Assembly: GCA_950295325.1 (NCBI GenBank)
Contig: OX485804.1
Coordinates: 1,798,001 to 1,862,000 of the forward strand
Reading direction: 5' to 3'
Source of the DNA: Polytrichum commune
Taxonomy: Eukaryota > Streptophyta > Polytrichopsida > Polytrichales > Polytrichaceae
DNA: 64,000 bases
Of the stretch, positions 7,301 through 64,000 are shown in pieces. The notes beneath the pieces were generated by a model, which saw only the letters and a list, made by a program, of their open reading frames with translations, searched no databases and was not told the origin of the DNA. The position numbers and the translations under genes were made by a program. The first letter of the stretch is position 1; every line of letters starts with the position of its first letter.

Positions 7301-8640
7301 AACCCTAAGAATTTTCTTTTGTCGATTGTGTAGTCCCATACGAAGGGGCACTTTACCCCTTCATGAGCTTCAGAGCCCATGGCCATTGAAATCTTAAATC
7401 TTTTGTTGTTGGAAAAGGCTTAGACCATCTCACTTCACTTACTGCGTCTAGAAGGTTTGGAAAGATGAAAAACCTACTTGGTATCCTACATGGGAAAAAT
7501 AATGGATGATGTAACAATTCCATGGTCTGTAGATTTTGCATGAAGCCCACTTCAAAGAAATGGGTTTAATACAAAACCGGGAGATCTTGAAAGTTCAGAA
7601 TTTCAGAATTTTTTTATTTGATTAATAACTTATTGTGTGGAATGTTCCTCACAAATCATAGGAACTTGACAATGGAATATCATTCAACTGAAAGTCGGTT
7701 GCGTATGTTTAAGATTGTACAATTATTCAAAGGCTCATGATTACACAAAATTTAGTTTCAAGTTTTCAAGGTATGTTGGGGGTAATATGCTCTTTAGATG
7801 AGTTCAAAAGCGTCACAATTTCATTGTGACAACCCTAAGGGTGAGTCATTGGGGTATATAGCCAAAGGAGCTTTAGAATCAAAACAAGGTTTTATTGGTT
7901 AACAATGAAAAAAATTACATTTGGGTCCGAATGGAAAGTATGAAACTGAAAAGTGGCATTAATATCCCACCACAATTTTGACTCAAGAAAATGTCTCATT
8001 CAATTAAGAAACCACATTCCAAGATCAATCTTGAGCCCAAAAATAAGGTTAATTATGAAGGGGTGTTTTGAACCCCAAGCTTCTTTGACATCGACCCCAA
8101 TGTTCACAGACCACCCTAACTTAGTTTCCTACTCAAACAACTATTTTACTCAATGTCAAATTCAATCACCGAATGTGTGAGCTCACACTAATCAACATCC
8201 ACCCGCACTAATTACCTTGCAATTGTTGGGTGGCAACTAGTCTACTTAGAAATTGTGATATGACACTTGGTGGTACATGACAAATCATGTAGACCACTGC
8301 AATCAAACATGATACGCCAATTTAAATGCCACATCAAATTAGATGTTTACCACAGTTGGTTAAGAAATTGACATAGCCAGTGTGATGCTTTCGACCACAT
8401 CCAGCCTTATCGTAGACATGCTACTGACCGTGCAGCACCACTTACCGTGCATGTCACGATACTCCACCATGCCACTTACCGTATACTTTTAATCTCGGCC
8501 GTCAAATTATATCACATGCAATCTCAATTGTCCGATGTCTCTCAAACTCAATCATGACCGCGCCAATGACCTAAAACATCACTGTCAACTCACACTCATC
8601 ATGGAGTTTCCTTCAATCAAATCACATAGCAAGGTGTAGA
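4304..8640. other. AT-rich intergenic DNA with MITE remnants
   Basis: No convincing gene was found. At 6648 the sequence ACTACACTAAATATTGCATT followed by TAGTGTCA resembles the outer end of MITE family A, so an old solo end or short derivative is likely. Short frames at 6859, 7353 and 7953 lack splice context and recognisable motifs. Confidence 0.4.
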
Positions 8641-11685: not shown

Positions 11686-11829
11686 GGGTGGATTGACTCT
11701 GTAGTTTTTGATGTGGCGTAGTGCATTGTCCTAGTGAAAGAACTTTATTATCCAATGTATTCAATAGTAAAGGTGAAATATTTCTTGATCAATGATAGCC
11801 GTAATTTTGTTTGTGGTTGGCAAGAGGTA

Positions 11830-12189
11830 CACTAAATAGTCCTATTATTGTGGACCACAATAATTTTCTAGAGCCCAAGTTAATTCTTATGATAAGAATT
11901 AATGTGCGTCACATTAATTTCAACCCACCCTAATTTTCTAGTAAAAACTTAGCATAAATTTTTTCTAGAAAATTATTGTGGGTGATTTTTTATTCTTTTT
12001 GTGTTACTTTTAATGTATGGTGATTGTTTCATTTCATGTAAGATATTGATCGAAAGTCTCAAGGAAATCTGAAGAGAAAACCCCATGTTTTGGACCCATG
12101 TTAATTCTACCCCAATCGGGGAATCAATGTGGCCAATGCTAATTATTTCCACACTATTTTTCCACCCACAGTAATAGGACTATTTAGTG
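11830..12189. mobile_element. TIR element of 360 bp with TA target duplication
   Basis: The left end reads CACTAAATAGTCCTATTA then TTGTGG; the right end is its inverted match (CCACAGTAATAGGACTATT then TAGTG). Both sides are flanked by TA. The inside is AT-rich, contains further inverted pieces (AATTTTCTAGA and TCTAGAAAATT) and has no coding capacity. A TA target site with short TIRs points to a Tc1/mariner-type (Stowaway-like) MITE, though the terminal bases are not the standard Stowaway ones. Confidence 0.75.
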
Positions 12190-12441
12190 TAGCTTCAAAG
12201 TCAATGCTAAAATGTTGAAGCAGAAGTTTCAAAGCTGGAGAAATGATATGTGGTTCTACAGTGGGGGCACATTACCAACCATACTGCCGAACACAACCAT
12301 TTTGTCATTTTATAGATTGGAGTTGTTAATGATGTAACAAGTGTGTCAAATACCAGAGTTTAAACTTTGCTGTGGAGCTTACAAACATTCAGCCCATTAA
12401 AGAAACTGCCGCCTCTGCAAAGGTGTTGACATAGTTGACCA

Positions 12442-20469: not shown

Positions 20470-20473
20470 ACAT

Positions 20474-20870
20474 AACACTATATTCGTTAATCGGAGACTT
20501 TGGAAAGTCTCAAAATCAAATTCACCCATAGTTTGGGATGCCAATATTGTGAGCATACATTATAATGGGAACATTGGGAAAATGATAGTTCATAAGTTTG
20601 TACGCAAAGAATATTCACATTACTAAATATAGTAATTTTAAATATCGTGATCAAAACATGAACTTCACATGGAAAATAACAATCAAATCTCCCAAAAAAT
20701 GGTTTTATGTCATTATAGAGTCTAGGATGCGCATCCCATATGGAAAGGTCTTATTGAATTAGATGGCATATCCCAAACTTATTTAAAATAAGTTTGAATG
20801 CAGCCGCAATACAACCAAGTCTATACAATGCCCCTATTTTCACACTAATTCCAACCTATGTTATGTCCAC
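20474..20870. repeat. Left terminal region shared with the 62,034 element
   Basis: It aligns with 62,034-62,440: ends, then the CATAGTTTGGGATGCCAATA block, GTGGAAAATAACAA, ATGTCATTATAGAGT, TGCGCATCCCATA and CCTATGTTATGT. In the other element this region lies just 3' of the DUF7869 stop codon, so here it is the terminal untranslated part of a deleted transposase gene. The frame at 20,845-21,147 (minus) does not resemble the C-terminus of the DUF7869 protein. Confidence 0.75.
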
Positions 20871-21399
20871 CGAAAGATGTATCCACAAACACACCCACCA
20901 CGATTGTCCCGTCAATATTGTCAGCCGATCGGGAAGAGAGTTCACATTCATTATCTAAAGACGATGCATATGTCGACAACACAAAGGCACTATCTACTAC
21001 ATCCACTACCATCACACCTAAAAAACAACCATGAATGGACAACCGCATAACCGATGCTATGCAAATAAGAGTGGACACACTATATGTGAGTATATATGAC
21101 CTACAATACATACATTTTCCAACTAAAGAGACAATAATGACTAGCAAACCAAAGACACGCTCGCATTGTGGACATTAAAAAGTAGGTGTTGGGATACCAT
21201 TGGAGAACCTCATAAATAAACACGAACATGTGTTCCAAAACAATCCATGGTCAGGTGTAAATAATCCTTATTTTTCCATTCCAATAAACATGGGCATCAC
21301 ATGGTGTTATTTATTATCTTTAGAAGGCGTTGAAATGATTTGTTAAGTAACCATGGACATGGTTCTACATCAATACAAGACATGATTTTCACATATGTT

Positions 21400-22480
21400 C
21401 ACAAACGCGCGGTCGTAAAGCACATTCCATTTCATGATCAAATTGTGCATGGGACAAACAACACATGATGTTAAAGGTCACACGATACATATATTCACAT
21501 TGGTGTCAAAGAACATTATACATGCATATGAAAAAAACTGAATGATATGGATTTAAAAATATTAGTCGCATACACAGTCGATACGATGTATGTCGTCGAT
21601 TATAGGCCCAAAATACAACAATACGACTTGGGATATACGAATGGGCGTTCGTATACCTCCCTATACATATTCCAGGAGGGTATCTTTATGAACGGCCGCG
21701 TGTATGTCACATGTTGTATTTTTTATGGCAAATAAAATTTAGACTGTAATAATTGTGGTATTTTACGGATGTACTTTCGCAAAACGTATGCCATCATACG
21801 GGTATTTGGGGCAATTGGATTGGTATACTCCATACGAATGGCCGTTCGTAAAGCTTTGGTAGGTATCTTTATGAATGCCCATTCGTATATCATCGTGACA
21901 GACTTGTATCATATATCATCATCATATTTGGGTCGATGCATAGATGTGTCTATGTATGGATGTTGTTTGGATACATAGACCATATTCACAGGTGGTATTT
22001 ACAAACGACCGTTCATAAGGCTTTGGGTCATATCTTTACGAACGTGCGTTCGTATATCACCATGACATATTGTTTGGGTCTATGCATAGATGTATGTCCA
22101 TCTATGGATGTTCCTAGACACATAGACCATACTCATAGGTGGTATTTACGAACGCACGTTCGTATATCACTATGATATATTGTTTGGGTCTATGCATAGA
22201 TGTATGTCTATCTATGGATATTTCTAGATACATAGACCATACTCACATGTGATATTTACGAATGCACGTTCGTAAACTCTTAGCCATCACATGTGATTGA
22301 ATCATTAATACAAATGCGTTCATTTGTGATTTACGAACGCGCGTTTGTAAACTCTCAATCACCATATATGTTTCAACCAATACTACAAATGCGTTGATTT
22401 GTGATTTACGAACGTGCGTTTGTAAACTCTCAACCATCATCTATGTTTGAACCAATACTACAAATGCATTGATTTGTGAT
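21400..22480. repeat. Diverged palindromes with a longer repeat
   Basis: About ten diverged copies of the TTTACGAACG...CGTTCGTAAA palindrome occur here, some ending CGTATATCA. From 21,925 to 22,260 they are embedded in a longer direct repeat containing GGGTCTATGCATAGATGTAT and ACATAGACCATACTCA. From 22,255 to 22,440 a second type alternates with CAAATGCGTTGATTTGTG. These appear to be older relatives of the dense arrays. Confidence 0.7.
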
Positions 22481-22495
22481 TTGTGATTTATATTT

Positions 22496-24060
22496 GTACC
22501 ATAGGTTGGTTGAAGGCTTGAAGCTTTGAAACATTGGATCTGGATTCGGTTTGCGAAAACCACCTTTGACCAAAAACGTTAGCTAGTCATAAGGACCCGA
22601 AAACTCCACTATAGGTTGTAGAAGGTTACAAATGCCAGCTCTAAGCTTATATTATGGAAACAACATCTAAAAGTTGGCCATTCAGACAAAAAACGCGAGC
22701 TCGTAGGTAGTGTCCAAGACATATTTTTTAGCCTTAAACGGAAGTTTAAGGCGATCATACGTCAAAGGAGTTTTCTAGAGATGCACTAGGTTAGGAGGTG
22801 TTTTTGCAAGGCTTGGAAATGACTAGCAACAAAAGAGTTAATGTAGCAAGGAAGGACTGCAAACACCCATTAACAATGAGCTTTCATATATACGTACTAT
22901 GCAGCATTTCGTTGCTACGCAGAAGTTTACGAAAATGTGGGCCGATGTTTACGAACGCCCGTTCGTAAATGTGCATCGAGGTTTACGAACGCCCGTTCGT
23001 AAATGTGGGCTGAGGTTTACGAACGCCCGTTCGTAAATGTGGGCTGAGGTTTACGAACGCACGTTCGTAACTGTGCAACACTTGGTTGCTGCGCAGAAGC
23101 TTACGAAAATGTGGGCCGATGTTTACGAACGCCCGTTCGTAAATGTGCATCGAGGTTTACGAACGCCCGTTCGTAAATGTGCATCGAGGTTTACGAACGC
23201 CCGTTCGTAAATGTGCATCGAGGTTTACGAACGCCCGTTCGTAAATGTGCATCGAGGTTTACGAACGCCCGTTCGTAAATGTGCATCGAGGTTTACGAAC
23301 GCCCGTTCGTAAATGTGCATCGAGGTTTACGAACGCCCGTTCGTAAATGTGGGCTGAGGTTTACGAACGCACGTTCGTAACTGTGCAACACTTGGTTGCT
23401 GCGCAGAAGCTTACGAAAATGTGGGCCGATGTTTACGAACGCCCGTTCGTAAATGTGGGCCAAGGTTTACGAACGCCCGTTCGTAAATGTGGGCCAAGGT
23501 TTACGAACGCCCGTTCGTAAATGTGCGCCGATGTTTACAAACGCACGTTCGTAACTGTGCAGCATTTGGTTGCTGCAAAGAAGTGTACGAAAATGTGGGC
23601 CGAGGTTTACGAACGCCCGTTCGTAAATGTGCGTTGACGTTTACGAACGCACGTTCGTAACTATGCAGCACTTGGTTGCTGCGCAAAAGTGTACGAAAAT
23701 GTGGGCCGAGGTTTACGAACGCCCGTTCGTAAATGTGCGCTGACGTTTACGAACGCACGTTCGTAACTATGCAGCACTTGGTTGCTGCGCAAAAGTGTAC
23801 GAAAATGTGGGCCGAGGTTTACGAACGCCCGTTCGTAAATGTGCGCTGACGTTTACGAACGCACGTTCGTAAATGTGCGCTGACGTTTACGAACGCACGT
23901 TCGTAACTATGCAGCACATGGTTGCTGCGCATAAGTGTACGAAAATGTGGGCCGAGGTTTGCGAACGCCCGTTCGTAAATGTGGCCGAGGTTTACAAACG
24001 CCCGTTCGTAAATGTGGTGGAGATTTACGAACGCCCGTTTGTAAACCTCCGGAATACGCA
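22496..24060. repeat. Left arm of the 6-kb inverted repeat
   Basis: The outer 400 bp (GTACCATAGGTTGGTTGAAG to about 22,900) are repeated in inverse orientation at 28,140-28,580. Matching landmarks are GGATCTGGATTCGG, GACCAAAAACGTTAGCTAGT, TCCACTATAGGTTGTAGAAG, GAGCTCGTAGGTAG and CCATTAACAATGAGCTTTCA. The inner part is the dense palindrome array. Arms of about 1.5 kb separated by 3 kb could form a large foldback structure. Confidence 0.8.
22922..24045. repeat. Left palindrome array, about 26 units
   Basis: Each unit is TTTACGAACG, two spacer bases (CC or CA on this strand), then CGTTCGTAAA. From 23,155 to 23,345 units repeat every 34 bp with linker TGTGCATCGAGG. Elsewhere linkers are TGTGGGCTGAGG, TGTGGGCCAAGG and TGTGCGCTGACG. 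Higher-order blocks begin with CACTTGGTTGCTGCGCAGAA then a half palindrome (TTACGAAAATGTGGGCCG); units with spacer CA usually end GTAAC before this block. Many short frames coding for ...YERPFVNV... are by-products of this repeat and are not genes. Confidence 0.9.
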
Positions 24061-27060
24061 GCGGTATATGCGGTGGATATACGTTGTACGTACATGAAGT
24101 GTGTAGTGTGGACGCATAGAAATGTGATATGCGCGCACTCCTTCAAGTCTCTAGAGCAGTCTCTAGAGCATGCCGCAAAAAAAAACTATGGTGTGGGGGG
24201 GAAGACCTTTAAGTACTGCTCTAGGGCGATTCAAAATCCCTTGGATGCTCTTTAAAAAGCGGATTCCCGCCGCCTAGCTTAACCTAACAATATGTCATTC
24301 TATCCATGCGAAACATGTATGACGCTATGTATGGAACATGTATGGCATGCATGCAACATATTGAAAATATTAATGTCGCTCGCACACCTTACGTGTTACC
24401 AAGGCCTCAGGATAAAAACATAAATACTATAATAGTCAAATGTTATTGAAATATGATGATGCTTAACATTAAATAAATGATTTGCGACCAAGTTATGAAA
24501 TCCAAGTTTTTGGGCAATTGATACCTATATGTTACCAAGGTCTAAGTGATATATATATATATATACATATACACATACATACAATGAGGTAGGAGTGGGT
24601 CAAAATTAGTTGTGGAGGCCCCTAAAATTGTATATATTATATGATTCACATCAAAACATGTCCAGAATATGCTCACTAAGTGTGTGGACACCAATAAAAA
24701 GTCTGATTAATTTGGAATGGCTTGTAAGGTAGAGGAAGGATATGATATGAAACCATACCTAAATATAATGTAGGTCTTAATTTAAGTGCAAACCTAGATG
24801 TGAAAAGATTGAATTAATCCGGAACGTGTGGCAAGATTGAAATTAATTTGGAATGGTACATAAGGTAGAGTAAGCATATGAATTCAAAACATACCTAGGT
24901 CGAGTCACACTAATTGCATGTTTTTGCATCCTACGAGAAGTAGGTGCATAACTAAAAGTATTCATTTAAAGTTGAGTCTTAAGACATGCATGTTAGAATA
25001 AGATTAAGTATGGACTGTGTGATCAAAATGCACTCAACATTATTAAGGTGAAAGAGGAAGAATTCCAAACTTCACTTTTGACATAAACCAAAGTTGTATC
25101 TTAAATCCAATTTTGAATCTTGAAATGACAATCGGCATGATTCTCAATAGTTGTTATTAACCGGATGAAGCAATATCCAATCCAACCAACATTGGTAGAC
25201 CAGTTGGACATGCCCACATACCACAACATGGCCACATATTTTGAATATTGGTAAGATTAATAGATTTAGGGATGTAGGGTTTAGGGTTTGGGGTTAGGGT
25301 TTGTGAAAGTTGTGCATGTCCGATAGTTAATACAATAGATTACACACACAAACGATATTGACTACTCAATAGCCCATATTGCACTCACTTAATTATGTAG
25401 AATGCACATTTTATACTTGCCAAACATCTGATCACATGGCTCAAATACACTTAGTTCAAGTTGAAGTTAAAGTTCAATGCACTATACAAATGTTAGTTCA
25501 AGTTGACACATAATTATATGAATTGATGACATGTTCGAAATTGAATTTCCCTCCACCTCTACTAAAATTAAGTTCACCCCCTCCCCCCTCCCCCCTCCCC
25601 CCTCCCCCCAATCTCAAATTGTGTATTTTATGAAGCTAATAATGATTATAGGAACTAATGAACAATTTGAAAGATATTTCATTCTTGAAAACAAAATATT
25701 TCAAAACACCATATGAGCATCCTTGGGGTTGGATTCTTCATCAAATTTCTACTAAATGATGTGCATTGTTCACTACAAATTTATACTCCCTATGTACCTA
25801 ATGTTTACAAAAGAACCAAATGTATAGGGACTAATAGAATGGGGAGAAAAAATTCATTTGTTTTTATACTAAGCTATTCAAATCAATATGATAAACACCT
25901 ATACTACATATACATAATACAAGACATGAATTAAGCATGCCTTCATTACTTACAAATTTTACTTTTATTTTCATGCAAGAGAGTCATCGAACGTTTTTCC
26001 ATCCTAACAAGTATGGACAAGGTAGTCATATTATGACTTCCTCCATAATATGACGACAATTCATGTATCGTAACTTGGATGAAACTAACACATTTCAATG
26101 GTAACAAATTCCCTCCCCACCCCTATCCCATCCCATCCCAACCCATCCCAACCCATCCCAACCCATCCCATCCCATCCCAACCCATCCCATCCCATCCCA
26201 TCCCCTCCCCACACCCCATCCCACCACATCCCAACCCTTCTCACGTGGAGGAGGCCACGTAGCAACGATAGGGAAACCCTAGCGGCGTTGGCTACCTCCC
26301 CGCACCCCTTCTTCTCCTTTCATTGTCATTTGGAGCATAGAAAGGAGAAGCAGAACGCTGAGCACATGCGGAGCGGAGCTCTTGTCATTTCTTTACTCAT
26401 ATCTTTTCTTTGTTTTGTTGGCGCGCGTGTTTGAGAGTCGCAGATTTCTTTTGAGAGTTGCAAGTTTGCTAGTAGAGAGCTTGAGAGCTACAAACTTGAA
26501 AGTTGCATACACATAAGAGTTGTTGCAAGGGTTTGTATGTAACGTGCGAGGGCTTAAGAGTGTGAGGGAGGAATGACTAATGTGAGGGTGCAGTAGATTG
26601 AATTTACAATTCTGAGGTTTTCGAAGTTTTTCACTAAATGAGGAAGCACAAGTTTTGGATGTATACCAATTCAACGTGCATAGTGTAATCCTCCTGAACT
26701 CACTTCCTTCACATTTTGAAATTTTTTTCATTGTTGAATTCCATGTGTTTTTTTCCATGTATGTTGAGCTTTGGCATGTTTTGTTTGCAAGTTTCCCCAT
26801 GTTTTTCGATTTAGTGTTCTCTCACAACCTGAAACTCGATTATGTTTTCATTCGGTTGTTTCAATTTTTATCGTTCTCAAGTTTTATCTTCACTTGCAGT
26901 ATGTAAAGGCACCAATTCAAGGTTGATAGGTATCAATCACAAACCAAAAGTGGCAAGATGGAATGGACAAATCACTGATACATATCAACCACTCCATTAT
27001 AGACCAATGCATATTTGTATTTGTTTATATATGAATATAAGAAACATATGTACATGCGTA
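24060..27060. other. Central 3 kb between the arms, no gene
   Basis: AT-rich DNA with simple repeats: TA repeats at 24,548-24,565, a telomere-like GGTTTAGGG tract near 25,280, CCCCCCT repeats at 25,577-25,610 and CCCATC/CCCAAC pentamer-type repeats at 26,100-26,240. From 26,240 to 26,560 a GC-richer stretch with GGAAACCCTAG and repeated GAGAGTTGCAAG resembles plant gene leader sequence; a similar style occurs at 61,250-62,000. The minus-strand frame 26,393-26,800 has no recognisable domain. Confidence 0.45.
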
Positions 27061-27065
27061 AATAC

Positions 27066-28120
27066 CGGAGCATGTTTACGAACGGGCGTTCGTAAACTTC
27101 AGCGCAACAACCAAGTGCTGCACAGTTACGAACGTGCGTTCGTAAACGTCGGCTTACGTTTACGAACGGGCGTTCGTAAATCTCGGCCCACATTTACGAA
27201 CGTGCGTTCGTAAACCTCGGCCCACATTTTCGTAAAATTCTGCGCAGCAACCAAGTGCTGCATAGTTAGTAAATGTGCGCCGACTTTTACGAACGTGCGT
27301 TCGTAAACGTCGGCCCACATTTACGAACGTGCGTTCGTAAACCTCGGCCCACATTTTCGTAAAATTCTGCGCAGCAACCAAGTGCTGCATAGTTAGTAAA
27401 TGTGCGCCGACTTTTACGAACGTGCGTTCGTAAACGTCGGCTCACGTTTACGAACGGGCGTTCGTAAATCTCGGCCCACATTTACGAACGTGCGTTCGTA
27501 AACCTCGGCCCACATTTTCGTAAAGTTCTGCAAAGCAACCAAGTGCTGCATAGTTAGTAAATGTGCGCCGACTTTTACGAACGTGCGTTCGTAAACGTCG
27601 GCTCACGTTTACGAACGGGCGTTCGTAAATCTCGGCCCACATTTACGAACGTGCGTTCGTAAACCTCGGCCCACATTTTCGTAAAATTCTGCGCAGCAAC
27701 CAAGTGCTGCATAGTTAGTAAATGTGCGCCGACTTTTACGAACGTGCGTTCGTAAACGTCGGCTTACGTTTACGAACGGGCGTTCGTAAATCTCGGCCCA
27801 CATTTACGAACGTGCGTTCGTAAACCTCGGCCTACATTTTCGTAAAATTCTGCGCAGCAACCAATTGCTGCATAGTTAGTAAATGTGCGCCGACTTTTAC
27901 GAACGGGCGTTCGTAAACCTCGGCCCACATTTTCGTAAACTTCTGATCATCAACCAAGTGTTGCACTGTTACGAACGTGCGTTCGTAAACCTCGACGAGT
28001 ATTTACAAATGCACGTTTGTAAACCTTGGCCAACAACAAAGGTTGCATATTTACGAACATGCAATTGTGAACTTCGGCGTAATAACCAAGGGCTGCATGT
28101 TTACGAATGCACGCTCATAA
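27066..28120. repeat. Right palindrome array with 161-bp higher-order repeat
   Basis: About 18-20 palindromes with spacer GG or TG on this strand, the inverse of the left array. Between 27,126 and 27,803 the sequence repeats exactly every 161 bp: three palindromes, then the half-unit TTTTCGTAAAATTCTG, the hairpin GCAGCAACCAAGTGCTGC, ATAGTTAGTAAATG. Units differ from each other by only a few bases, so the array has been homogenised recently. From 27,960 on, units become degenerate. Confidence 0.9.
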
Positions 28121-28139
28121 ACCTTGGCTACATACAATG

Positions 28140-28580
28140 AAAATGTGCACCACCCCCCTGCTACAATAATCAATAGCGAATAGGAGTATGTGTATATGAA
28201 AGCCCATTGTTAATGGGTGTTTGCAGTCCTTCCTTGCTACATTAATTCTTTTGTTGCTAGTCATTTCCAAGCCTTGCAAAAACACCTCCCAACCTAGTGC
28301 ATCTCTAGAAAATTCCTTTGACGTATGATCGCCTTAAACTTATGTTTAAGGCTAAAAAATATGTCTTGGATGCTACCTACGAGCTCACGTTTTTGGTCTG
28401 AATGGCCAACTTTTAGATGTTGTTTCCATAATATAAGCTTAGAGCTGGCATCTCTAACCTTCTACAACCTATAGTGGAGTTTTCGGGTCCTTATGACTAG
28501 CTGACGTTTTTGGTCAAAGGTGGTTTTCGCAAACCGAATCCAGATCCAACGTTTCTAAGCTTCAACCAACATATGGTACA
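28140..28580. repeat. Outer part of the right inverted arm
   Basis: It is the inverse of 22,496-22,900: GCCCATTGTTAATGGGTGTT, GCAAAAACACCTCCCAACCT, CTACGAGCTCACGTTTTTGG, TCCACTATAG read inversely, GGTTTTCGCAAACCGAATCC, ending CCAACATATGGTAC. Identity with the left arm is high, with a few substitutions and a 9-base difference near the outer end. Confidence 0.8.
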
Positions 28581-29455
28581 TTTTCAATAACACCTTCAAC
28601 ACCTTTGTTTTGCCAACACTAAGGACTATGTTATCTTAGAAGGAGAGCAGTAATAGGAGAATGCCAACAATGAATCTACTCTTCAAATCCCTCTTTCAAC
28701 ACTTTGTTGCTTGTTTTCCAAGACTGTTGTCTGTCTGGACTGCCTCACATTTCTAGGTCTAAACTTACAAGCATACACACCTTCTCTAAGAGTCTAAGCT
28801 ATCTTCACATATGTGTACTAAGAGAGCCAAAAGGTTCTAGGACAATCTTTATATACCTCAAAACAACTACCTACTAGGTGGGTCAACTTGGTAGGTTACC
28901 ACCCTGTCAAAACACTGCAACTAGCTGTCCTCACGCGTTTTTGCCCTTTGTCCAATACATGACCAACTGGCATACAAAGGTCATAAAAAATGATCAACTA
29001 GTCACAGAAATGCAATGCTATTTAATAACTTTGGACCAACAAGTCATTATCTGACCAACTAAATTATTAACACCAAATAATTACTACTACTGAATAAATT
29101 GCTCAGTAGTAAAACAGTAAAAAACCAATTAGTGGACGTTTTAACAACTAATTGCATTAGGGACAAATTTGACGTCAACTAGTAAACTAACATTCTTTTG
29201 CCCTTTCGACAATTCGCGACCAACTAGTTAGTTTTTGATGGGTTGGTTTACTATGAACATTTTATGTTCTTAAAACACGGTGCTAACTTCTACCTTAACT
29301 TCTATCTTATCTATGTTTGTGCAAATAAATGAAACCACTATACATATTTGCAAACACACATTCGTAAAAATACGTAATGTTGATTTACACATTACACATT
29401 ACACTGATTTACGAACGGTTGTTCGTAAATATGCTACCAAAATCTACTTTAACAA

Positions 29456-29862
29456 TTGAATGTGGATATACTTTATATTGTGCATAAAGTATGGTCTTGG
29501 AGAACACGGTGCCCATTTTCAAGTTCCTCATCTGTGATCTCCCAAGCCCTTGCCTCGTTCTCGGCCAAGAAGTATGTGATGAGCTAATTGACGAGAATGG
29601 TGTGCCAATGCCCAAGTTTGGTGGTCGAGGCGGAGGGCAACATTTCCTCAAGGTCTTGAGGTCCAGGTTGTGGCTAGAAGCCCCCCTATTGGAGGGAGTC
29701 CCCCACGGGAGCTGGCCAACTCTGGAGAACACCCTCCTCATCGACGACAACACCGCCAAGAGCCTTCTTTGTCCCCTCCTATTCTTTCACCGTTGCTCTC
29801 ATTTTCTTGCATCTGCATGTTATGCACTTTACGAGCGCCCATCCCAAACCGCCCCTCCTTAA
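29456..29862 (+). pseudogene. Captured FCP1-like (HAD) phosphatase fragment
   Basis: The frame from 29,491 contains LGQEVCDELIDENG, GGRGGGQHFLKVL, then LENTLLIDDNTAKSLL at residues 78-93. The last part is like motif IV of plant FCP1/NIF-type HAD phosphatases (xNTLLIDDSxxKxxxNP). In another frame just upstream, VHKVWSWRTR resembles the VWSSRT motif that precedes this region in the family, so a frameshift separates them. The catalytic DxDGT motif is absent. The fragment starts directly after a palindrome (29,410) inside the transposon and is GC-richer than its surroundings, as expected for transduplicated host exon sequence. It is probably not a functional enzyme. Confidence 0.55.
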
Positions 29863-29869
29863 TTTACCC

Positions 29870-30290
29870 ACTCCACTCTGTCTATGATATTGTTTCACAG
29901 GTCGTTCCACGCTCGTTTGGTGGCCGACCCTCCTTGACTTCTTCATTGGAGACGCCCACAACTCAAGGTTGCATCTTCCGAGTCCGATCGTTGTTTGGCC
30001 CTCCGGAGAAGTGCAAGACATCCTCTCTTGCAGATGCCTTTGTATTCCACTACAATACCACTTCGTATAATTCGGGAGCGCGTTTGGACATATTGAAGAA
30101 CGACACATATTCGAGGCCAGTCAACAAACTTGGCTATAGTTGCGGGCCGGAGATTTTCAAAGCTATAGAGGCCATTGGAGCATTACAGAGAGTAGCCACC
30201 GTAAAAGATAAGGACATGGCCACGAGAAAAAATATAGTGGGACGTACTAGTGGGACGTACTAGTGGGACTATAAACGCCTACGGACTCCC
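29870..30290 (+). other. GC-richer segment after the FCP1 fragment
   Basis: The open frame that ends at 30,263 includes SLADAFVFHYNTTSYNSGAR and GYSCGPEIFKAIEAIGALQR. The first part of that frame is only a shadow of the FCP1 frame. A TTTCACAG before 29,900 could be a 3' splice site. It may be a second captured exon; no family is recognised. Confidence 0.25.
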
Positions 30291-30640
30291 TAAATGTGTG
30301 TAGGGGTAGAGCATAGTGCTTGGTTATCCATTCTATTTGAAGGTCTTCAAGACATTAATGGTATTTCCATTATGTTTGTATTTCAAACCCGTTGAATAGA
30401 TTCAATTTCCAATCATTCTCCACATCTTCCTGTCCATTAGCAACAATTTGTCATTTTATACACATATGTTTTCATGTATGATTCATTTTTTTGTTCACTT
30501 TGATGCATTTATGTTGATGATTATATCCAATGTTATACATATGGTATTTTAATGTTGTTAACATTGGCTCAAATTTGAAAACCACGTCCTTGAATAGTCT
30601 CAAAATCATCAAAAAGTCTCCGATTACCGAATATAGTGTT

Positions 30641-31775
30641 ACATGTCTATGTCCTTTATTCACTCCATTAAAAAAACTAAAAAAAAACTAAAACAAAAAC
30701 ATATGGGACCCTAGGAGTGCACCTCTATAAAAACAAATTGGCATACATGTGCAAGAACCACATATTTGTTTAGGGGATACTTATATTATTCATTGATTTT
30801 TTAGGGACCCTAAATATTATCCTACTTATCACCATATAGGTAATTATAGATTCTCAAATTGTGCAAAATTAAATTGCACCTTACTTATTCATAAGAATTA
30901 GGGGTTTAAATTTTTCCCTCATGATATTGGAGTGGACTTCCTTGTTTGTTGATGTTTTTCACATAACGGAACCAAGAAAAAAGACAAAACCTTTAAGCAA
31001 TCTGAAGATGGTGTGACCGTGCAGTTGGGGGAGCTGTCAAAATGACAATGGAAAGGGAAAACTAGCTCAAGGTGCTTGGGTGTAGGCATGGTAAAGTGGA
31101 CCAAAACAATGCTCTAGTATACTAAGACTTTTTTTGGGGGGGGGGAGGGGGAGGGGGTTGAGTCAAAGCCCTAAAGTAGTGGCAAAGTATTGTTTAGATT
31201 GGATTTTTTTTGATGATGAACTCTATTGTTGTGTTAATACTCAAAGATAGAATATCAAGTTGAGATCTTCAAAACTTATCATGAAAAGTGATGCTCAAAA
31301 ACACATGATTGAAGTTGGTTGTGGACAGACTTCATGACCTTAAATACTTTGAAGTTGGAAGGTTTTTCAAATTCCTTGAATTCATTATCTACTTGAAAGC
31401 ATCATCACAAAACCTTATAGAAAACCACCAATTTAATGTAACTTTATCATATTTAAAACTAATTTTAGGCAATTACTTGTTCAATATTGCCTACTTGCAC
31501 CGTCTTCTAAAATATGTAGACTTTTCTTGGAATTTTTTTTGTCATCATAAATTTCTTGGCTTTGTAGATTGACATTTTTTAAAAATGTTTACGAATTATT
31601 TCTTCACAAAATTCAAAATTAATGTATACTTTTGAATTACTTTCATTTGAACCTAGACAGGGATCATGAGTTGTCCACTTTACTGTGCTTGCACCCGCTT
31701 CTACCAAAAAAATCTCCTCATCCATTTTGCTTGTTTCCTCCACGACAAACCAAAGTTCATCGACCAAATCTTATT
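30641..31775. repeat. 1.1-kb dispersed repeat, copy 1
   Basis: It starts immediately outside the right end of the big transposon (ACATGTCTATGTCCTTTATT) and matches 51,818-52,870 along its length, with a G-tract expansion at 31,136-31,158. Minus-strand peptides are shared by both copies: VHFTM..PKH.EL.FPFHCHFDSSPN and VKWTTHDP.LGS.ESNSK. Plus-strand frames are also partly shared, so open frames here may just reflect similarity. It is probably a decayed element of unknown type. Confidence 0.65.
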
Positions 31776-52870: not shown

Positions 52871-53508
52871 GTTTCCAACAAATCACCACTATTTTTTGTA
52901 ACATAAGTTAACTTACCCTCCAAAAAGATCTCAACCTGATACATTTAAATACCTAACACAACAATTGAAGACAACAAACACTATATTCGTTAAATTGAGA
53001 CTTTCTCTAGTCTCAAATTAATATATGGATCAAACAACATTCCGTGTTCCGAAACTATATTGAGAATGATCTCAAATATATTATATGTTCTAATATCCCA
53101 AATCTATTATGTGTGGACATAAGCACATGTGGTAGAGCACTCAACACCAACTTCATCTACAAAAACACTTTGGGTAGAGCACTCCAAACTAGTTTCACCC
53201 AAGAAACATATAAAATGATTTCTATTATTAGCATGGTCAATAAAATATAGACATTGCAACATACAAAGTGCATGCAATAAATGCATTTTTCTTCAATGGA
53301 AAATTTAGTCCCAAACTTAATAAAAAAAATGAACTTCACAACTGTATTGAAATATAGTAAATGGATATTCATCCAACCCCAAACAATATAGCATTCGCAA
53401 GTTCTACCCAAACTTTGCCCCAAGTTTGAGGAGCACACATATGAGTAATATATATTCGTCGAATTACATATTACACTATAATCATGCTAACACAATCCTA
53501 CCAACTTC

Positions 53509-56500
53509 TCATTCAACGTGGGTTGCTTCTTCTGCGATCTGAGCAAGGTTGTCTTTTGCAAAAGTTATGTACTTTTGAGGGATGGACACTGATCCACTAT
53601 GATTTTTCCGTGGTTTCCATGCTATGAATATGGAATCTGTATCTACCCAAGATGGACCGTGCTCAGAATCCACCTTCCACCAAAAGTTAGGGTTTGTATC
53701 CCAGCCTGTATAATGCCGAACAACATCTTCATTCCATGCTGTCGGTCGGTAGTACTCTACTTGTATTTGTCGAAAATGAGGGCTGGAAGTTACAAAATTT
53801 GGTTTGGACAAAGCTCTTGCCACCCACACTGGCTTTGCATATGTCTCATCTCCAGGACGCAAAATGAGCATATAACCTTCATGACAATCCACTGCAATGC
53901 GGAAAGATGGTGGCGGACGACTACTAGCAGGCCCCACGTAATGGTCGTCCACATCAAACTCCTCTCGAACCTCTCCATTTCCCAAAAGACTAGCCTCCGA
54001 AGCTTGTACATTGACACGTGTTTGTGGCCAAAACCCATGCCTTAAAGTAAGGGGTGTATCTTGATGAAGGTTTGCCAAAGCGCCACGAACACGTGTCCAA
54101 TATTGTATCCAACTTCCGTAACGAAGCCAACATGATCCACCAACATCCGCTACCCTCAAACTCTCCCAATATTGTATGAAGCCTGATATGCCTTTACAAA
54201 TGTCCTCCAAATTCTTCATGGGTATTGGTTTGCAAGGCTTAGGCTCTCCGTCAGGCAACATCGTCCTTCCTTCTCCATCAACACGCCATACAAGGAGACC
54301 CTCCGGCGGGCTCCAGTCTTGTGATGTGCACAACAACTTGTATTGCATGGCGGGGACACCATCGTCACGCACGTAGAACCAAAATTGTTGTGCCTTCGTA
54401 TGCCCGATCAATCGGTGAGCTCCGCTTCGAATATACGGTTCTATAAATGCCTTGAAGTCTGGAACCTCCTCGATCATATGGGGGATGACGGGAATGTTCT
54501 CCAAATCCATGTACGACTTCATCAACAATGGGATTGTTGGAAAATCCTCCTCGCGCAACTTCATGCTCCACCGCCCAAAGGACGCATCAATATCATCGTG
54601 CGTATGGCCTACCAATAGAAAGGACACAAAAACCTCCTTGAAAATGCCTTTCGCAACCAACAACGACCAATATGCAAAAACATATCTACTTTTATTGTCC
54701 TTCGCACAATTGTCCAATTGGACACGCAGAGTTGGGGGCAACTTCTTGGCAATCACATCTTCACTTGGTGGCTCCGGCAATGAGTGCACGCATACATCTC
54801 TTCCATCCAAGACCGCTTCATATAGAGGTGTTGATCCCGAGTTTTCAAATAACAATCTTGATGAATAGGACGGCGGTTTCTCCAAATCACGTAAAAGCTT
54901 TGCAAATGACCCTATCGTGTGGTTTGAATCCGCCGGATACAAATCAAGAGCATAATGAGCATATTTGACATCACCATGCCCATGTGCAATCATTCCTGCA
55001 AAGGCAACCCAATGGTTTAATATTCAACTATAACACCAAAAAATTCACATGGTGTACATGTATGGCCCCAAGTACAAACCTAAACGCACAAATTTGTGTT
55101 TAGGTAATGCAATGCAATTGTTATCAAAATCACCTGTAACCGAAACAGGAAGCTTAAAAAGGCCGTCCGTGGCTTTGATTCGATTTGCAAAACATGGTGA
55201 GGCTGTTTTGGCATGGTCCATCTTGTCATGGATGATTGTAAGGACTTCCAAAGGCCTGGAGATGGACAAAGCTCTATTTGTGTAGTAATCATTACGGTGT
55301 GCCTCTTGCATGTTCACATGCTTGAAATAGTTCATTTGATGTGCGGCATAGGACTCTGTCCCCATCGTGTGTGCATCTCGAAGGCGTTTCAACTTCTCGC
55401 ATTTGGAACAACGGGCAAATTTGTCGCCTCGTCTTTTTGTGATGTATTCGCTAAAGTGAGATTTTTTGATAGCACTCAGTTTCGACAACGAAATTGGGTC
55501 CAACCCGGCCTTCTCGCCAACTGCGTTTACGTCCAACAATATGTCTTTCCATTTCGTGCCTGTAGGAAGAACCTTCTCCACAACCTTTTCACCGGTTGCG
55601 AGTGTGCGTGTTTTGTGCGGCATTGCATCGGCAAGGGGGACAATGATGGTTGCCAAAGTGGCTGTTGCTTGTCTCGTTGCTTCTCTTGGTTTCTTTAAGC
55701 CCATGTTCCTATGGTGACGGGCACGGCGGCCTTCATTGGCATACGCGGCTTGTCTATAAAATTCCGCTTTCGACACACCATGAATGGTGTACCATGCCGT
55801 ACAACACACGTCTATGCTCTCAAGGGTGATGACCTTGCGACCCGCTCCGTTCACATGTATCGCCCTATGGACATCAAGTTTTTGGTGGATCTTAGACGGA
55901 AATCTCCAAGCCACATTTCTTCACGGATGGCCTTCAATTTATCTCTTGGGAACAATTGGCAACAACGATGTACACAACAATCCTTCGTAGCAACTTCTCT
56001 AATAGACTCCTCACAGAGCAACCTTTGACGTTTACACTTATTTGCAGATGGAGTAGGACGTGTCAATGTTTCGTACTTCCGAAGGCCTTTGCGTGGCCGA
56101 ATGTTTGTTTGGAGCTCCTGTTGGATTTGGACATGTCGTCGCTCATGGTCGCGCAAGCTAACCCCCTCAATTGTCACATTCCTCAACGGCCACCTTCGCA
56201 ACGAGAACCTATGAGTTGGATTGACTTCCGAATGTACGAGTGATTCCAATATAACAACTCCAACGTCCTCGGTGCCAAGGGGGTGTTCATCAATGCAATC
56301 TTGTGGATGTGTGTTACGACAAATACCCTCCGCCACAGCAACTCCACTGTCATTAACAAGTACCACATCCAAATTCACCCATGAAGCTCGTGAAAGCCCC
56401 GCACATTCCACAATGGGGCAAAAAGGGTCAGATGGCGAAGGACTCCCCAAATGACCTTCATCTGCACTGTCATCAAAACTATCCTCCCCGACAATGTCTA

Positions 56501-56576
56501 GCTCATCCCCAGACAGAGATTGGGTGCTGCCCATGTCTTCAGAGAAGGAATCCCCTCTTCCACCAACTCCCTCCAT
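53509..56576 (-). CDS. DUF7869 protein, probable transposase, one frameshift
   Basis: Two exons, 55134-56576 and 53509-54995, with a 138-bp intron (donor GTGATT, acceptor TTTGCAG) joining SVT-G to MIAHGHGDVKYAHY. ATG 56,576 (MEGVGGRGDSF) is preferred because GTGTGTAG just before it looks like a 3' splice site. Order: acidic N-terminus, a Cys segment CCVHRCCQLFPRDKLKAIRE, SIDVCCTAWYTIHGVSKAEF, a Cys pair FARCSKCEKLKRL, then the DUF7869 core with LDNCAKDNKSRYVFAYWSLL and VGHTHDDIDASFGRWSMKL. Acidic residues in these two motifs resemble metal-binding residues of DDE/D transposases (inference). Homology passes from one frame to another near 55,860-55,914, so a one-base indel has broken the gene. 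Confidence 0.8.
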
Positions 56577-56775
56577 TACGCCTACACACATGCACATGAA
56601 ACCTCAACAAACATGGACACAATGTAAGGGTCCAAAAGAATCAAATATTGGAAAATGCAAAACATCACGATGAATGGGGACACTGAGGATCAAGACATTT
56701 GCAACACAAATGCAATGTGAGCTCCCAATACTGTGCGCCAGTCCACAAAATGTTCCACAAAATATTTTGGGTGGG

Positions 56776-57437
56776 AGTTTGGGTCGGCCGACCTAAACCC
56801 TGTGGCACCAGGGATTGAGGGCCATCCCCACCTTGCCCGTGGGATAGGGTCGGGTTCCGGTCGACCGACTCAAACCTTGTACAATGATGGGTTGAGGGCC
56901 ATTTAGAATTCCATCACACTGTGGGGAAAACTTTGGGTCGACCGACCCAATTCTTGTCATGGTCAACTACAACCGCCGAAACTGGGGAAGGGGTTTGGGT
57001 CGACCGACCCAAACTTTCAAAGGGTAAACCCACCCACACTCAGAAGGGGTTTGGGTCGGTCGACCCAAACTTTCACAGGGTAAGTCCACCCACACCGGGA
57101 AAGGGTTTGGGTCGGTCGACCCAAACTTTCACAGTGTAAATCCACCCACACTGGGATGAGGTTTGGGTCGCTCGACCCAAACATTACATATGATGGGATA
57201 AGGTTCCTACTCTGTCCGTCCAAACTTTCTGAGTACCTTGGGTAAGGGCCATTAACAATTCGTTCACGATGTGCGAAAAAGTTTGGGTCGACCGACCCAA
57301 ACCTTCTAAAAGGTTTTACGATAAACGCCCACAGTGGGGTAGGGGTTTGGGTCGACCGACCCAAACCTCACAAGGGTCAGAGTAGACCCCCCCCCCCCAA
57401 CACTAGTGAAGGGGTTTGGGTCGACCGACCCAAACCT
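56776..57437. repeat. Palindrome array of the DUF7869 element
   Basis: About ten copies of TTTGGGTCG, two spacer bases (AC, GT or CT), CGACCCAAA, many perfect, at about 56,932, 56,995, 57,050, 57,107, 57,163, 57,282, 57,346 and 57,415. Spacing is 55-69 bases. Two early copies near 56,776 and 56,850 are diverged. Linkers share AAGGGT, CCCACCCACAC and GGGGAAGGG. The array lies between the TATA box (57,705) and the ATG (56,576), hence in the transcribed leader or first intron. Confidence 0.88.
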
Positions 57438-58114: not shown

Positions 58115-58625
58115 TGTCTCCCCTAAACCCTAAACCCTAGAACATTGCTCTATTATCTCGCATGGAAGTGTGGCAATGATAAACGTATGTAACACTATAT
58201 TCGTTAAATTCAGACTTTCTCTAGTCTCAAATTAATATATGGATCAAACAAAAACTTCTACAATGTCACCCTAATGCATCATATACATATTAAATGATGA
58301 TATTGATCTACTTTAATTCAAACATTACGGTATGGCATTAACCAATATGTAGACAAAAGAAGTCTAAACATTGTGTAACGCCTTATGGTAAGAGTCACTA
58401 AATACAATAGTTAAAGTGGTTATGAAGATCCTCGCAAGGGGAATTATTAATTTTGAAATCAAATTATGTCATGACAAAGTTCATTTATTGTTCCAAATCT
58501 GAATTTGCAACAATGCAAGTGACAAGAGCTTTTATATATAATATGTTGTCATCCCTAAACCCTAAACCCTACAATATTGTCCTCTTCTCTCGCATGCAAG
58601 TGTGGCAATGACGAATGTATGTGGA
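58115..58625. repeat. Duplicated telomere-like block around a solo end
   Basis: CCCTAAACCCTAAACCCTA followed by CTCGCATG.AAGTGTGGCAAT occurs at about 58,120-58,185 and again at 58,550-58,615. Between them, 58,191 starts another AACACTATATTCGTTAAATT end with the same first 60 bases as 52,977, but no gene follows. This is a solo or strongly deleted copy of the DUF7869 transposon end. Confidence 0.6.
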
Positions 58626-59954
58626 CGTCGATAAGGGGATACTAACTACCAATGTGGCTTTTTAGTTCAATATTTCCATGCTAATTGAATCCATCCTCAA
58701 GTTCACTTCAAGCTTACTAATGTGTGTGAACAAAACATCCAAAGTTGAACCCTAAACCCTTATAACATCCACAACATGAAATTATACGTATTGACTAAAC
58801 CATACACCAATTAGTATATCATGTTTAGACGTTCCAAATAACATATTCACATGATCAAGATTGTGGTCACTATAACCTTCCTATTAGACTCTTCTTAATA
58901 TATAAACAACATTTCTTATATCTTTCTCCATTATCTAATATACGTGGAGGGAACAATGAACAACAACACAATTGCTTGCATGGCTTCATTTGATGTTGTG
59001 CTTAACCGATTTACGTTTATATCACATTCCATATATTAAATACATCACGAACCATAGTTTATTGGCGACTATGTGATTCATCAAAGGGAGCAAAACATCC
59101 AAAGTTAGACCCCTAAGTCCTAATAACATCCACAAAATGAAATGCTATTTGAATAAACACAAGACCAATTAGTATATCACGTTTAAACGTCCCAAATAAC
59201 AACTTAACATACTCAACATCATCTTTACTATAACCTTCCTATAAGACTCTTCTCACCAGTAAGTCAATGTTGTACGTTAATATTAGATAGATTAATATGT
59301 TATAACCATGACTCCTAAACCCTAAACCCTAAACCCCAAATCTTGTAGTTGTTCAGTGCTACCTCCATATACAAACAACATCAAGTTTGTCTTGCGCCAT
59401 TATCTACACTACTTGAAAATCATGACCAAATCAACAAAAAATCAACAGAACTTTGTCGATCCGGGCACTGCAATGACCGATTTCACTGATTTTTGAATTT
59501 TTGTAAAAATCAACAGTTTACTGCCTACATTTTTGTTGATTAGAATAGTACAATGACCAAATCAACAAAATTTTAGTAAATGTGAAATCTTTTTTGAATC
59601 TTTTTGGGAATATTCTAGGATCTATTGGAATATTGTAAAATCTTTTTAATTTTTTGCAATTTATGGACTTGTAAGTGTATGGGTATGGAAATAATTACGA
59701 ATTCAAAGGTGTTTAAATATTATAAATATTATATTAGTTGATAGTTAATATTATATATGTATTAATATTAATATATTAATATGTATAATATGTATATAAT
59801 ATATGTAACATATAATATATATATGTATATATATGTATGTATGTATGTATATATATGTATGTATATATGTATATATATAATATATGTAACATATCTGTAT
59901 ATAATATATGTAACATGTATGTATATAATATATAATATATAAATATGTATACAT

Positions 59955-60165
59955 TTACAGTAAATATATACAGTATATATTTACTGTAATTATATACAGT
60001 ATATATTTACTGTAATTATATACAGTATATATTTACTGTAATTATATACAGTATATATTTACTGTAATTATATACAGTATATATTTACTGTAATTATATA
60101 CAGTATATATTTACTGTAATTATATACTGTAATTATATACTGTATATATTTACTGTAAATATATA
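59955..60165. repeat. 26-bp tandem repeat, self-complementary
   Basis: TACAGTATATATTTACTGTA followed by ATTATA repeats about seven times at a strict 26-bp period. Each unit is nearly its own reverse complement, so the tract can form hairpins. It lies inside the CACTA-type element and is preceded by TA/TATG simple sequence (59,740-59,950). Confidence 0.85.
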
Positions 60166-60242
60166 CATCAAGTAGGTAGTAAAGAGAAATTAGTGGCCTT
60201 ATTCTAGAAAGGTTTAAAACACTCCATTTATATCATGTGTGA

Positions 60243-61643: not shown

Positions 61644-61812
61644 GATGAGTGCATGTGAGTGCTTGTGAGTGCATGTGAGTGCTTGTGAGTACATGTGAGT
61701 GCTTGTGAGTACATGTGAGTGCTTGTGAGTGCATGTGAGTGCTTGTGAGTGCATGTGAGGGCTTGTGAGTGCATGTGAGTGCTTATGAGTGCATGTGAGT
61801 GCTTGTGAGTGG
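61644..61812. repeat. 20-bp minisatellite
   Basis: GAGTGCATGTGAGTGCTTGT repeats about eight times with A/C and T/G variants. Antisense frames rich in HSQALTCTHKHSHVLT are artefacts of this repeat. Confidence 0.9.
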
Positions 61813-62033
61813 TTGTCAGATTAGGAAGTTCTATAAGAGATACAAAAGTGATACAAAAGTGCTTTCAGAGATTTAGTTATTGTTTTGAGAGATTCAGTTG
61901 TTGTTTTAACAGACTCAGTTGTTGTTTGAGAGTTACAATTGTTGTTTGAGTGATTCTGAAGAGACTCAGGAGTTGTGTGAGAGATTGTGGGTTTATTGAG
62001 AGATTCAAGAAAGGTTTAAAATCTTTGGTAGTT

Positions 62034-64000
62034 AACACTATATTCGTTAATCGGAGACTTTTGAAAGTCTCAAAATAAAATATGCCCATAGTTTGGGATG
62101 CCAATATTGTGGGCATATGGAATGTTGGGAACATCAAGAACATGACAATTTAAAAATTCGCACGTAAAGAATATTCCTAATACTAAAAATAGAAAATTGC
62201 AATTATAATGAAAACGTGAACTCCATGTGGAAAATAACAAGCGAATATAAAAAACAAATGGTTTATGTCATTATAGAGTTTGGGGTGCGCATCCCATAAG
62301 TAAGGTTCTTATGGTTTTGGATGGCACATCCCAAACGTATACCACAATGGAGTGTGACAAGTCTACTAAGTCTATTAAAAACCAAGACTACTAAGTACTA
62401 ATGTTTTTTCCCGCCGTTAACTTTCACCTATGTTATGTTTACCCATCTCCATCTTCCGCTTCATATCCATTCTCGGCGTCATTTTCCGCAGCTGCAATAC
62501 GTGCCAAGTTGTCTTTGGCAAAATCTATATGTTTTTGGGGGATGGTCATTGCTTCTGTGTTGGAACCTTTGCGCGGCTTCCAAGCACAAAGTATAGTATC
62601 CGTGTTTATCCAAACCGGTGTGTACGCTGAGTCCACTGTCCACTTAAAATTCTTTTTGGTGTCCCAACCTAAATAAGTGCGGAGCACGTTGTGGTCTTTA
62701 GTGCTTGGACGACAATATTCCACCTCAATTTGACGAAAGTTGGGGTTAGTTCGAACAAAATTGGGTGAAGACAATGCTTTTACCAACCAAATTGGCTTGG
62801 GATGCTCCTCATCCCCAGCTCGTACGAGGACCAAATACCCTTCATGGCAATCAACACCTACACGAAACGACGGTGCCGGTCGATTGCGGGCAGGGCCAAC
62901 GTAATGCTCGTCCATTGCGAACTCTTCACGAACGTCTCCATTGCTGAAAAACATAGTATCGGACTCGACAACCGTCAAACGACTTTGTGGCCAAAATCCT
63001 TGTGTCAAAGTCGTACGGGTGTCGCCACCAAGTGTTATCAAGGCTGAGCGAATGCGATCCCAATACGCGATCAACGGTTCATGGGTATCTCTAACACGTC
63101 TTGTGATGTCCTCCTCGCACAACTCTTTCCAATATTCAATGAATCCGGATATGCCTTTGATGATTTCCGGCCCATTCCTCATGGGTTCGGGTTTGCAAGG
63201 CTTTGGTTCCCCATCCGGGACCAAACATTTCCCATCATTGTCTTGACGCCATACGAGTATACCATCATCCGGGCCCCAATTAGGAGATGTGCACAAAAGC
63301 TTGAATTGCATGGCCGGGAGACCATCGTCCCTCATATAAAATCGGAATTGTTGTGCTTTGGTATGCCCCACCAAACGGTCCCCTCCCTTCAACATGTATG
63401 GCTTGATGAAGGCCTTGAAATTTGGTACTTCCTCAATCAAGTGCGGAATTACTGGCATATGGTCCAAATCCATATACGATTTCATAAGAAGAGGTATGGT
63501 TGGAAAATCTTCTTCATGCAACTTCATGCTCCACCGTCCGAATGATGCATCAATGTCGTCGTGTGTATGTCCCACCATCAAGAAAGACACAAACACCTCC
63601 TTGAAGATTCCTTTCGCCACGAGCAATGACCAAAAACAAAATACGTATCGACATTTGTTGTCCTTCGCACAATTATCAAGTTGAACGTGGAGAGTTGGAG
63701 GCAATGGTTTTGCACAAATGGGCTCTCCGGGTGGTTCTGGCAATGACGACATACAAACCTCCTTCCCCAAAAGCACTGCCTCATAAAGGGATGTGGTTCC
63801 ACAACCATCAAAAAGTGCACGGGAAGAATGTACCGGTGGCTTCTCAAGATCGCGCAACAGTTTTGCAAATGAACCCACCGTGTGGTTAGCATCCCCAGGG
63901 TAAAAATCCAAACCATAATGGGCATACTTTACGTCCCCATGGCCGTGGGCAATCATACCTGGAAAAAACAAACGATGCGTGACCAAAATAATCAAATAAC
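62034..64000 (-). mobile_element. DUF7869 transposon, cut by window end
   Basis: The left end is AACACTATATTCGTTAATCG then GAGACTTTTGAAAGTCTC. The first 400 bp match the left end of the 10.2-kb element at 20,474. The transposase-like gene follows at 62,439 on the minus strand; its upstream part, promoter and any palindrome array lie outside the window. Confidence 0.75.
62439..63958 (-). CDS. DUF7869 protein, C-terminal exon, intact
   Basis: The exon starts after TTTTTTCCAG with (G)MIAHGHGDVKYAHYGL, the same junction as the copy at 53,509, and is open for 505 codons from that methionine. Motifs: LDNCAKDNKCRYVFCFWSLL at about residues 91-110 and VGHTHDDIDASFGRWSMKL at about 128-146; further on GHTKAQQFRFYMRDDG, HYVGPARNRPAPSFRVGVDC and YLGWDTKKNF. 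It differs throughout from the 53,509 protein yet keeps every motif and has no stops, so it has evolved under protein constraint. The acidic tail ENDAENGYEAEDGDG is longer. The likely role is transposase (inference). Upstream exons are outside the window. Confidence 0.88.

Follow-up and report, generated by a model that had tools for sequence, protein, structure and literature searches.

A superfamily of large DNA transposons in the moss Polytrichum commune typically carries arrays of a 22-bp palindrome, and the palindromes are probably dimeric sites for a protein that the transposons themselves encode. The stretch analysed was 64,000 nt of OX485804.1, hereafter the window, in which a 10,167 bp element with terminal inverted repeats (TIRs) occupies positions 20474-30640 and owes its inverted look to a pair of arrays that flank a central region. 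Comparison of this element with its relatives in the genome (407.8 Mb, 64 contigs) points to a Sola-like superfamily with DUF7869 transposases. The predicted binder is most likely a ParB-methyltransferase protein through which each family would recognise itself, and non-autonomous copies would borrow the proteins of coding members.

Gene content was recovered from three coding relatives, b1, b2 and L028. Element b1 belongs to family B, runs from L009 to L034 over 16,146 bp and is flanked on both sides by the target site duplication (TSD) TGGT, and b2 is a family B element lying inside a copy of family A, the family of the window element. The leftward open frames of b1 and b2 comprised a ParB-like exon, a methyltransferase-like exon, a frame of 501 to 523 aa and a NIF/FCP1 phosphatase, and the rightward frame encoded a transposase with DUF7869 (6.3e-43, scanned in b2). 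L028 had an A-type left end, DUF7869 transposase pieces (2e-13), A palindromes and ParB and methyltransferase pieces. In all three elements these two exons ran opposite to the transposase, and splice-like borders suggest that they form one gene.

Fold comparison matched the ParB-like exon to the ParB-CTPase fold and the second exon to an amino-DNA-methyltransferase-like fold, and an FGGSK-like motif of the latter domain kept its glycine and lysine in 23/23 sequences. Pfam returned no family for these two exons beyond a sub-threshold DUF4357 and none for the 501-aa exon. Three motifs of the DUF7869 transposases, HDKMDH-, Q-x-DN- and HTHDDID-like, contained Asp, and the second and third hardly varied over 19 rows. 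The transposases had 302 protein relatives; among the 120 listed, the single one with an organism name was a Physcomitrium patens protein 52% identical over 99% of the query. A PDB sequence search with a transposase piece gave no match. The phosphatase of b1 matched PF03031 (9.7e-14), and a NIF/FCP1-like phosphatase gene (PF03031) was placed at L010:6093-6941 on the minus strand. This gene looks like transposon cargo, being open in b1 and b2 and present as a remnant in the window element.

Palindromes were located upstream of both divergent genes in the three coding elements. In b1, one array (7410-7935) lay ahead of the minus-strand ParB start near 7383 and a second (11695-12348) preceded the transposase frame at 12532, and the arrays of b2 were placed similarly, within about 1.1 kb. 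L028 had six-odd sites upstream of the ParB frame, at no more than 0.6 kb from it, and its transposase-side sites were 1.5-3.3 kb from the first transposase piece found. Ten methyltransferase loci, picked from 95 by reading-frame class, contained 42 sites with at most 4 mismatches, all of which were in the introns flanking the exon and none overlapped it. The listed TIRs were without the palindrome.

Three versions of the palindrome were identified. Family A has TTTACGAACG-NN-CGTTCGTAAA and family B has GTTTGGGTCG-NN-CGACCCAAAC, and a third version, A', with TTTACGGACG-NN-CGTCCGTAAA, differs from A by a symmetric change in both half-sites. No A sites (at most 4 mismatches) were present in b1 or b2. 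The ten methyltransferase loci carried the A type at six, A' at three, where single hybrid-looking sites were also present, and B at one. In a protein tree of 23 rows, the six A loci grouped together (99/99), as did the three A' loci (100/99) and eight B rows (100/100), with a long-branch warning for P0087 and P0088. Metagenomic frames agreed with their places in this tree, as the tails of P0084 and P0086 spelled an A site and that of P0085, which joined with a support of 93/89, an A' site when read by eye. In the sequences compared, the palindrome follows the protein clade in three versions.

Perfect sites numbered 2,909 for A, 1,147 for A' and 9,231 for B across the genome. When the variable position was left open on both sides, 4,102 sites were found, of which 4,056 were like pairs (2,909 + 1,147), 43 were hybrids (17 + 26) and 3 were others, while about 1,670 hybrids would be expected if the halves were independent. 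Reversed-pattern controls gave 0 in each of the genome-wide searches (A, A', B, hybrid and open position). Homotypic half-sites would be expected from a dimer that prefers a single half-site in each family, although shared descent of the arrays would also contribute. Across 669 array sites, conservation was 83-99.6% at the specified palindrome positions, 72% and 49% at the two centre bases and 30-85% in the spacers; the sites were chosen by the palindrome itself (at most 5 mismatches), which biases toward it, and the free centre and the spacers serve as the internal comparison.

The window element was resolved into the following features, in which a strand is given where one applies.

20474..30640: apparently non-autonomous TIR element of family A, 10,167 bp, delimited by its ends, TSD and collinear copies
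20470..20473 (plus strand) and 30641-30644: left and right copies of the 4-bp target duplication ACAT
20474..20501, plus strand: left TIR, 28 bp, AACACTATATTCGTTAATCGGAGACTTT
20875..21021, minus strand: fragment similar to the A-type transposase in its first coding piece (E 9.7e-7, 51% over 49 aa)
21398..22426: diverged palindromes outside the arrays, some within 110-bp and 75-bp tandem repeats
22518..22898, plus strand: left inverted arm, 381 bp, characteristic of the non-autonomous subfamily
22948..24045: left palindrome array, 26 sites of TTTACGAACG-NN-CGTTCGTAAA
24046..27074: central region, homologous to the between-array region of L027 and L028 (longer pieces 67-82% identical)
27075..28121: right palindrome array, 17 perfect 20-mer cores and 3 with 3 to 5 mismatches
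28185..28565, minus strand: right inverted arm, 381 bp
29347..29430: two palindromes near the right end, with 4 mismatches and 1 mismatch
29488..29775, plus strand: NIF/FCP1-like phosphatase gene remnant (40% over 96 aa, E 8e-16)
30613..30640, minus strand: right TIR, with one mismatch to the left TIR (G for T, position 14)

The original prediction, made from the letters of the window, had described a TIR transposon with matched 28-bp ends, one mismatch and an ACAT duplication, all of which were recovered here. Its two opposite arms with palindrome arrays were also found, as 381-bp arms that are 96% complementary and enclose the arrays. Further diverged palindromes had been reported only inside the element, and the 55 sites of the window with at most 3 mismatches were all within it (0.00 expected from 100 dinucleotide shuffles), with no A-type site of at most 2 mismatches elsewhere in the window. 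The array had been taken as a peculiarity of the inverted repeat, which did not hold, as the coding relatives carry the same palindrome upstream of their two divergent genes and in introns. The element looks non-autonomous because its ends, palindromes and centre match the coding relatives, yet only transposase and NIF-phosphatase fragments are left. Its centre shares homology with what separates the two arrays in L027 and L028, so its two inverted arrays correspond to the arrays flanking that centre, with the genes gone.

The 381-bp arm had no match in the examined parts of four relatives. A nested inner element bounded by the arms was considered and rejected, as no clear TSD was seen by eye at the outer arm borders and 15 of the 16 family A copies compared have an arm at each side, L014 being without the left one. 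The arms are therefore treated as a trait that marks this non-autonomous subfamily. Foldback elements were likewise considered and set aside.

A copy search with the first 127 bp of the element gave 808 candidates, of which 40 were scored and 18 places among those 40 were compared. Fifteen family A copies, the window element included, had two ends; L015, L027 and L028, where the right end was not seen in the retrieved sequence, and L018, interrupted by a family B element, are outside this count. An exact 4-bp TSD of varied sequence flanked 13/15, so that other copies with the same ends and duplications exist, as the original prediction required, and the left-T/right-G difference between the ends was common to all fifteen. 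Longer aligned blocks were mostly more than 90% identical and collinear, excluding the diverged L027 and L028 (about 73-83%), and a non-autonomous element could hold up to 61 sites (L024, at most 5 mismatches).

The end pattern, with at most 2 mismatches, occurred 1,381 + 1,364 times in the genome and its reversed control 0 times. The first 100 listed ends, all on contig C1, fell into ATCGG (family A), ATTGG (A') and AAATT (B) classes plus minor variants. Sites were assigned to ends by eye from listings spanning only parts of contig C1. Among 86 distinct listed A sites, 63 fell inside a listed end at a distance of up to about 21 kb, 5 adjoined a methyltransferase copy and 18 were unassigned; a single cluster with a two-array-plus-introns spacing held 17 of the 18. 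An ATTGG-type end was near 47/50 listed A' sites, and a listed end or methyltransferase copy was near 77/100 listed B sites. Sites outside bounded elements were thus a minority of those listed, and confinement of the palindromes may not be strict; the expectation that the palindromes would not be spread broadly outside such elements stood, with the 18 unassigned A sites counting against it. B palindromes, partly at about 32-bp spacing, were also found with no listed end nearby at C1:475338-478028 and C1:2154319-2159887, perhaps representing another non-autonomous family.

A mechanism consistent with these observations is that coding members would express two divergent genes, the transposase and a ParB-CTPase-like/amino-DNA-methyltransferase-like protein, and that an element-encoded protein, most likely the latter, would bind the 22-bp palindromes as a dimer. 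With sites upstream and in introns, the protein could recognise its own family and either regulate it or keep it transcribable, as VANC does on VANDAL elements, and it is by this analogy that autoregulation or anti-silencing is suggested. Protein and site would have changed together, leaving each family with its own palindrome. The non-autonomous element may have kept its ends and sites, amplified the sites and taken both the transposase and the binding protein in trans. The ParB-methyltransferase is favoured as the binder because its own introns and upstream region carry sites and because ParB proteins act at palindromic sites, parS being a palindrome. A further reason is that self-binding was put forward for proteins of this kind in the work on Ectocarpus (PMC12477816).

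Several observations weigh against this explanation. Two of the fifteen two-ended copies (L016 and L023) had no matching TSD, nor did b2, one of the two family B elements, at the two right ends tried, and 18/86 A, 3/50 A' and 23/100 B listed sites were away from a listed end or methyltransferase copy. The fold matches were moderate, with best Foldseek E values of 6e-3 and 1.7e-2. Active amino-DNA-methyltransferases have [D/N/S]PP[Y/F/W] as motif IV, and the presumed motif IV here was D-x-R and not DPPY-like (D and R in 23/23, x = F in 20/23). The Box II GxxR of ParB was also not kept, with Ser at the Arg position in 20/21 sequences and Asn in one. Enzymatic activity is doubtful because of this replaced Arg and degenerate motif IV. 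The clades number only three, and because transposase and TIR class go along with them on the same elements, the clade match fits either protein as the binder; the binding sites themselves are predicted from sequence. Substitutions gave no clear sign that palindromes were protected, as CpG transitions in the left region were 3.1% in palindromes vs 3.7% outside and in the right region 2.5% (8 sites only) vs 4.8%. CHG transitions outside palindromes were 4.5% and 3.2% vs 1.0% and 1.8% at other C/G sites (left and right, respectively), and the overall pattern fits methylation of these copies.

A more elaborate form of the proposal is a eukaryotic ParB-parS-like system, in which a nucleotide-gated clamp would load at the palindromes, spread and shield the element from silencing or direct a base mark, with the non-autonomous elements as amplified loading platforms that parasitise it. 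We hold this form to be doubtful.

The palindromes may instead be bound by the transposase or its alternative products, for synapsis or autoregulation, and the transposase is a rival candidate because, like the end class, it is carried by the very elements that bear the sites. CACTA and other elements offer a precedent in subterminal sites that their transposases bind. End class went with palindrome type among the listed sites just as the ParB-methyltransferase did, the A-type and B-type transposases differ from each other, and one array is upstream of the transposase. However, most sites were 2-8 kb from the ends, the listed TIRs lacked the palindrome, and sites recurred in both examined introns of the other gene at 10/10 loci, so that transposase binding appears unlikely.

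Promoter-like positions of the sites would also suit a host transcription or chromatin factor hijacked by the elements. This is very unlikely, as three palindromes for three element clades in one genome would require three such host factors.

Hairpins, cruciforms or long inverted transcripts feeding small-RNA production were considered equally improbable as the reason for the palindromes. The symmetric A/A' change preserves self-complementarity, inverted arms of about 1.5 kb are present, and two-sided changes in the 16 family A copies numbered 75 (59 compensated, 16 not) vs 29.1 expected by independence. But 55 of the 59 compensated changes were of three recurrent types, probably inherited among copies, and the two B elements had 0 compensated and 7 not. 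The intronic and upstream sites of the coding elements are outside any such inverted repeat, and 4,056/4,102 sites used only two symmetric letters at the variable position, 3 using another letter. The hairpins for small RNA offered by the original prediction are disfavoured by this restriction in letters, whereas its other suggestions, protein binding or a block to silencing, are upheld as candidate roles of the arrays. The arrays could also be a functionless sequence multiplied by neutral tandem growth, for which their tandem form and varying copy number could speak; this is scarcely credible given that single sites scattered over different introns have the sequence of their clade and that spacers and centre vary more than the half-sites.

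VANDALs are Mutator-like elements, and the TnpA protein of En/Spm binds subterminal 12-bp sites. En/Spm resembles the present case in having an element-encoded protein on arrayed short motifs at promoter and end regions and differs in transposase superfamily, TSD and motif. The VANC motif of VANDAL elements occurs in tandem repeats within introns and upstream regions and differs between related elements, protein and target co-evolving, and for VANC21 it is the 9-bp YAGTATTAY (PMC5735166). The moss elements share with VANDAL an element-encoded protein and a short, element-specific motif in the same settings and differ by a 22-bp palindrome, a ParB-methyltransferase protein and a 4-bp TSD, with anti-silencing suggested here by analogy. 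Sola elements have a 4-bp TSD, TIRs of 11 bp to 1124 bp and a DDD-type transposase, and were reported from Physcomitrella and as uncommon in flowering plants (PMC10741241). By that published description, the moss elements are alike in their 4-bp TSD (13/15 A copies and 1/2 B elements) and 28-bp TIRs, and their DUF7869 transposase, with Asp in the three motifs given above, may be of the DDD type.

Sola1-1_Ec32 of Ectocarpus is a giant DNA transposon with a gene for a ParB-like and N4C/N6A methyltransferase protein opposite to the transposase, and its authors regarded such proteins as possible self-binding, self-modifying accessory proteins (PMC12477816). The same arrangement of a ParB-like plus amino-methyltransferase protein is present in b1, b2 and L028. 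The available part of that account mentions no binding sites or palindrome arrays (PMC12477816), whereas the moss elements carry arrays and differ further in the NIF phosphatase, a PH-like N-terminal domain, the degenerate motif IV and the non-autonomous array elements. The ParB-CTPase fold has been surveyed (PMC12704722). Bacterial ParB-parS is similar in combining a ParB-like domain with short palindromic sites, and differs in that the Box II Arg is replaced in the moss proteins. ParB-methyltransferase genes in such elements were thus known already (PMC12477816), and what appears to be new is a candidate target in three protein-matched versions within one genome; palindromic or clade-matched targets for transposon ParB-methyltransferase proteins were not found among the papers listed by literature searches aimed at such proteins. 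The candidate target is visible here and open to simple binding assays. If the proposal is correct, plants would possess no fewer than two unrelated systems, VANC and the present one, in which transposons mark themselves by arrays that serve their own protein, and the abundant non-autonomous copies would show how such self-marks are parasitised.

Other elements of the same superfamily were found in the window.

52977..53004, plus strand: TIR of a family B element, transposase side
53773..56597, minus strand: coding pieces of a family B transposase, 78-92% to b2, with matches in two frames for the upstream piece
53773-55017, minus strand: DUF7869 in the open piece of the B transposase (3.5e-42)
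56777..57435: B palindrome array GTTTGGGTCG-NN-CGACCCAAAC, 8 sites with at most 2 mismatches, upstream of the B transposase
58191..58218, plus strand: second B-like TIR
62034..62061, plus strand: A-type TIR of an element running past the window edge
62736..63998, minus strand: A-type transposase coding piece, open, 408 aa, with DUF7869 (92-94% to L028 pieces; 4e-40)

Tandem repeats outside the described elements included a 26-bp repeat at 59947-60166 and a 10/20-bp repeat at 61646-61816. The plastid PsaB of this genome had its best PDB matches in 7ksq, 6l35 and 8htu (1671.8 bits, next 1634.3), which are structures from the moss Physcomitrium. Elsewhere in the assembly, contig C8 (146,561 bases) looks like the plastid genome, with full PsaA and PsaB frames side by side.

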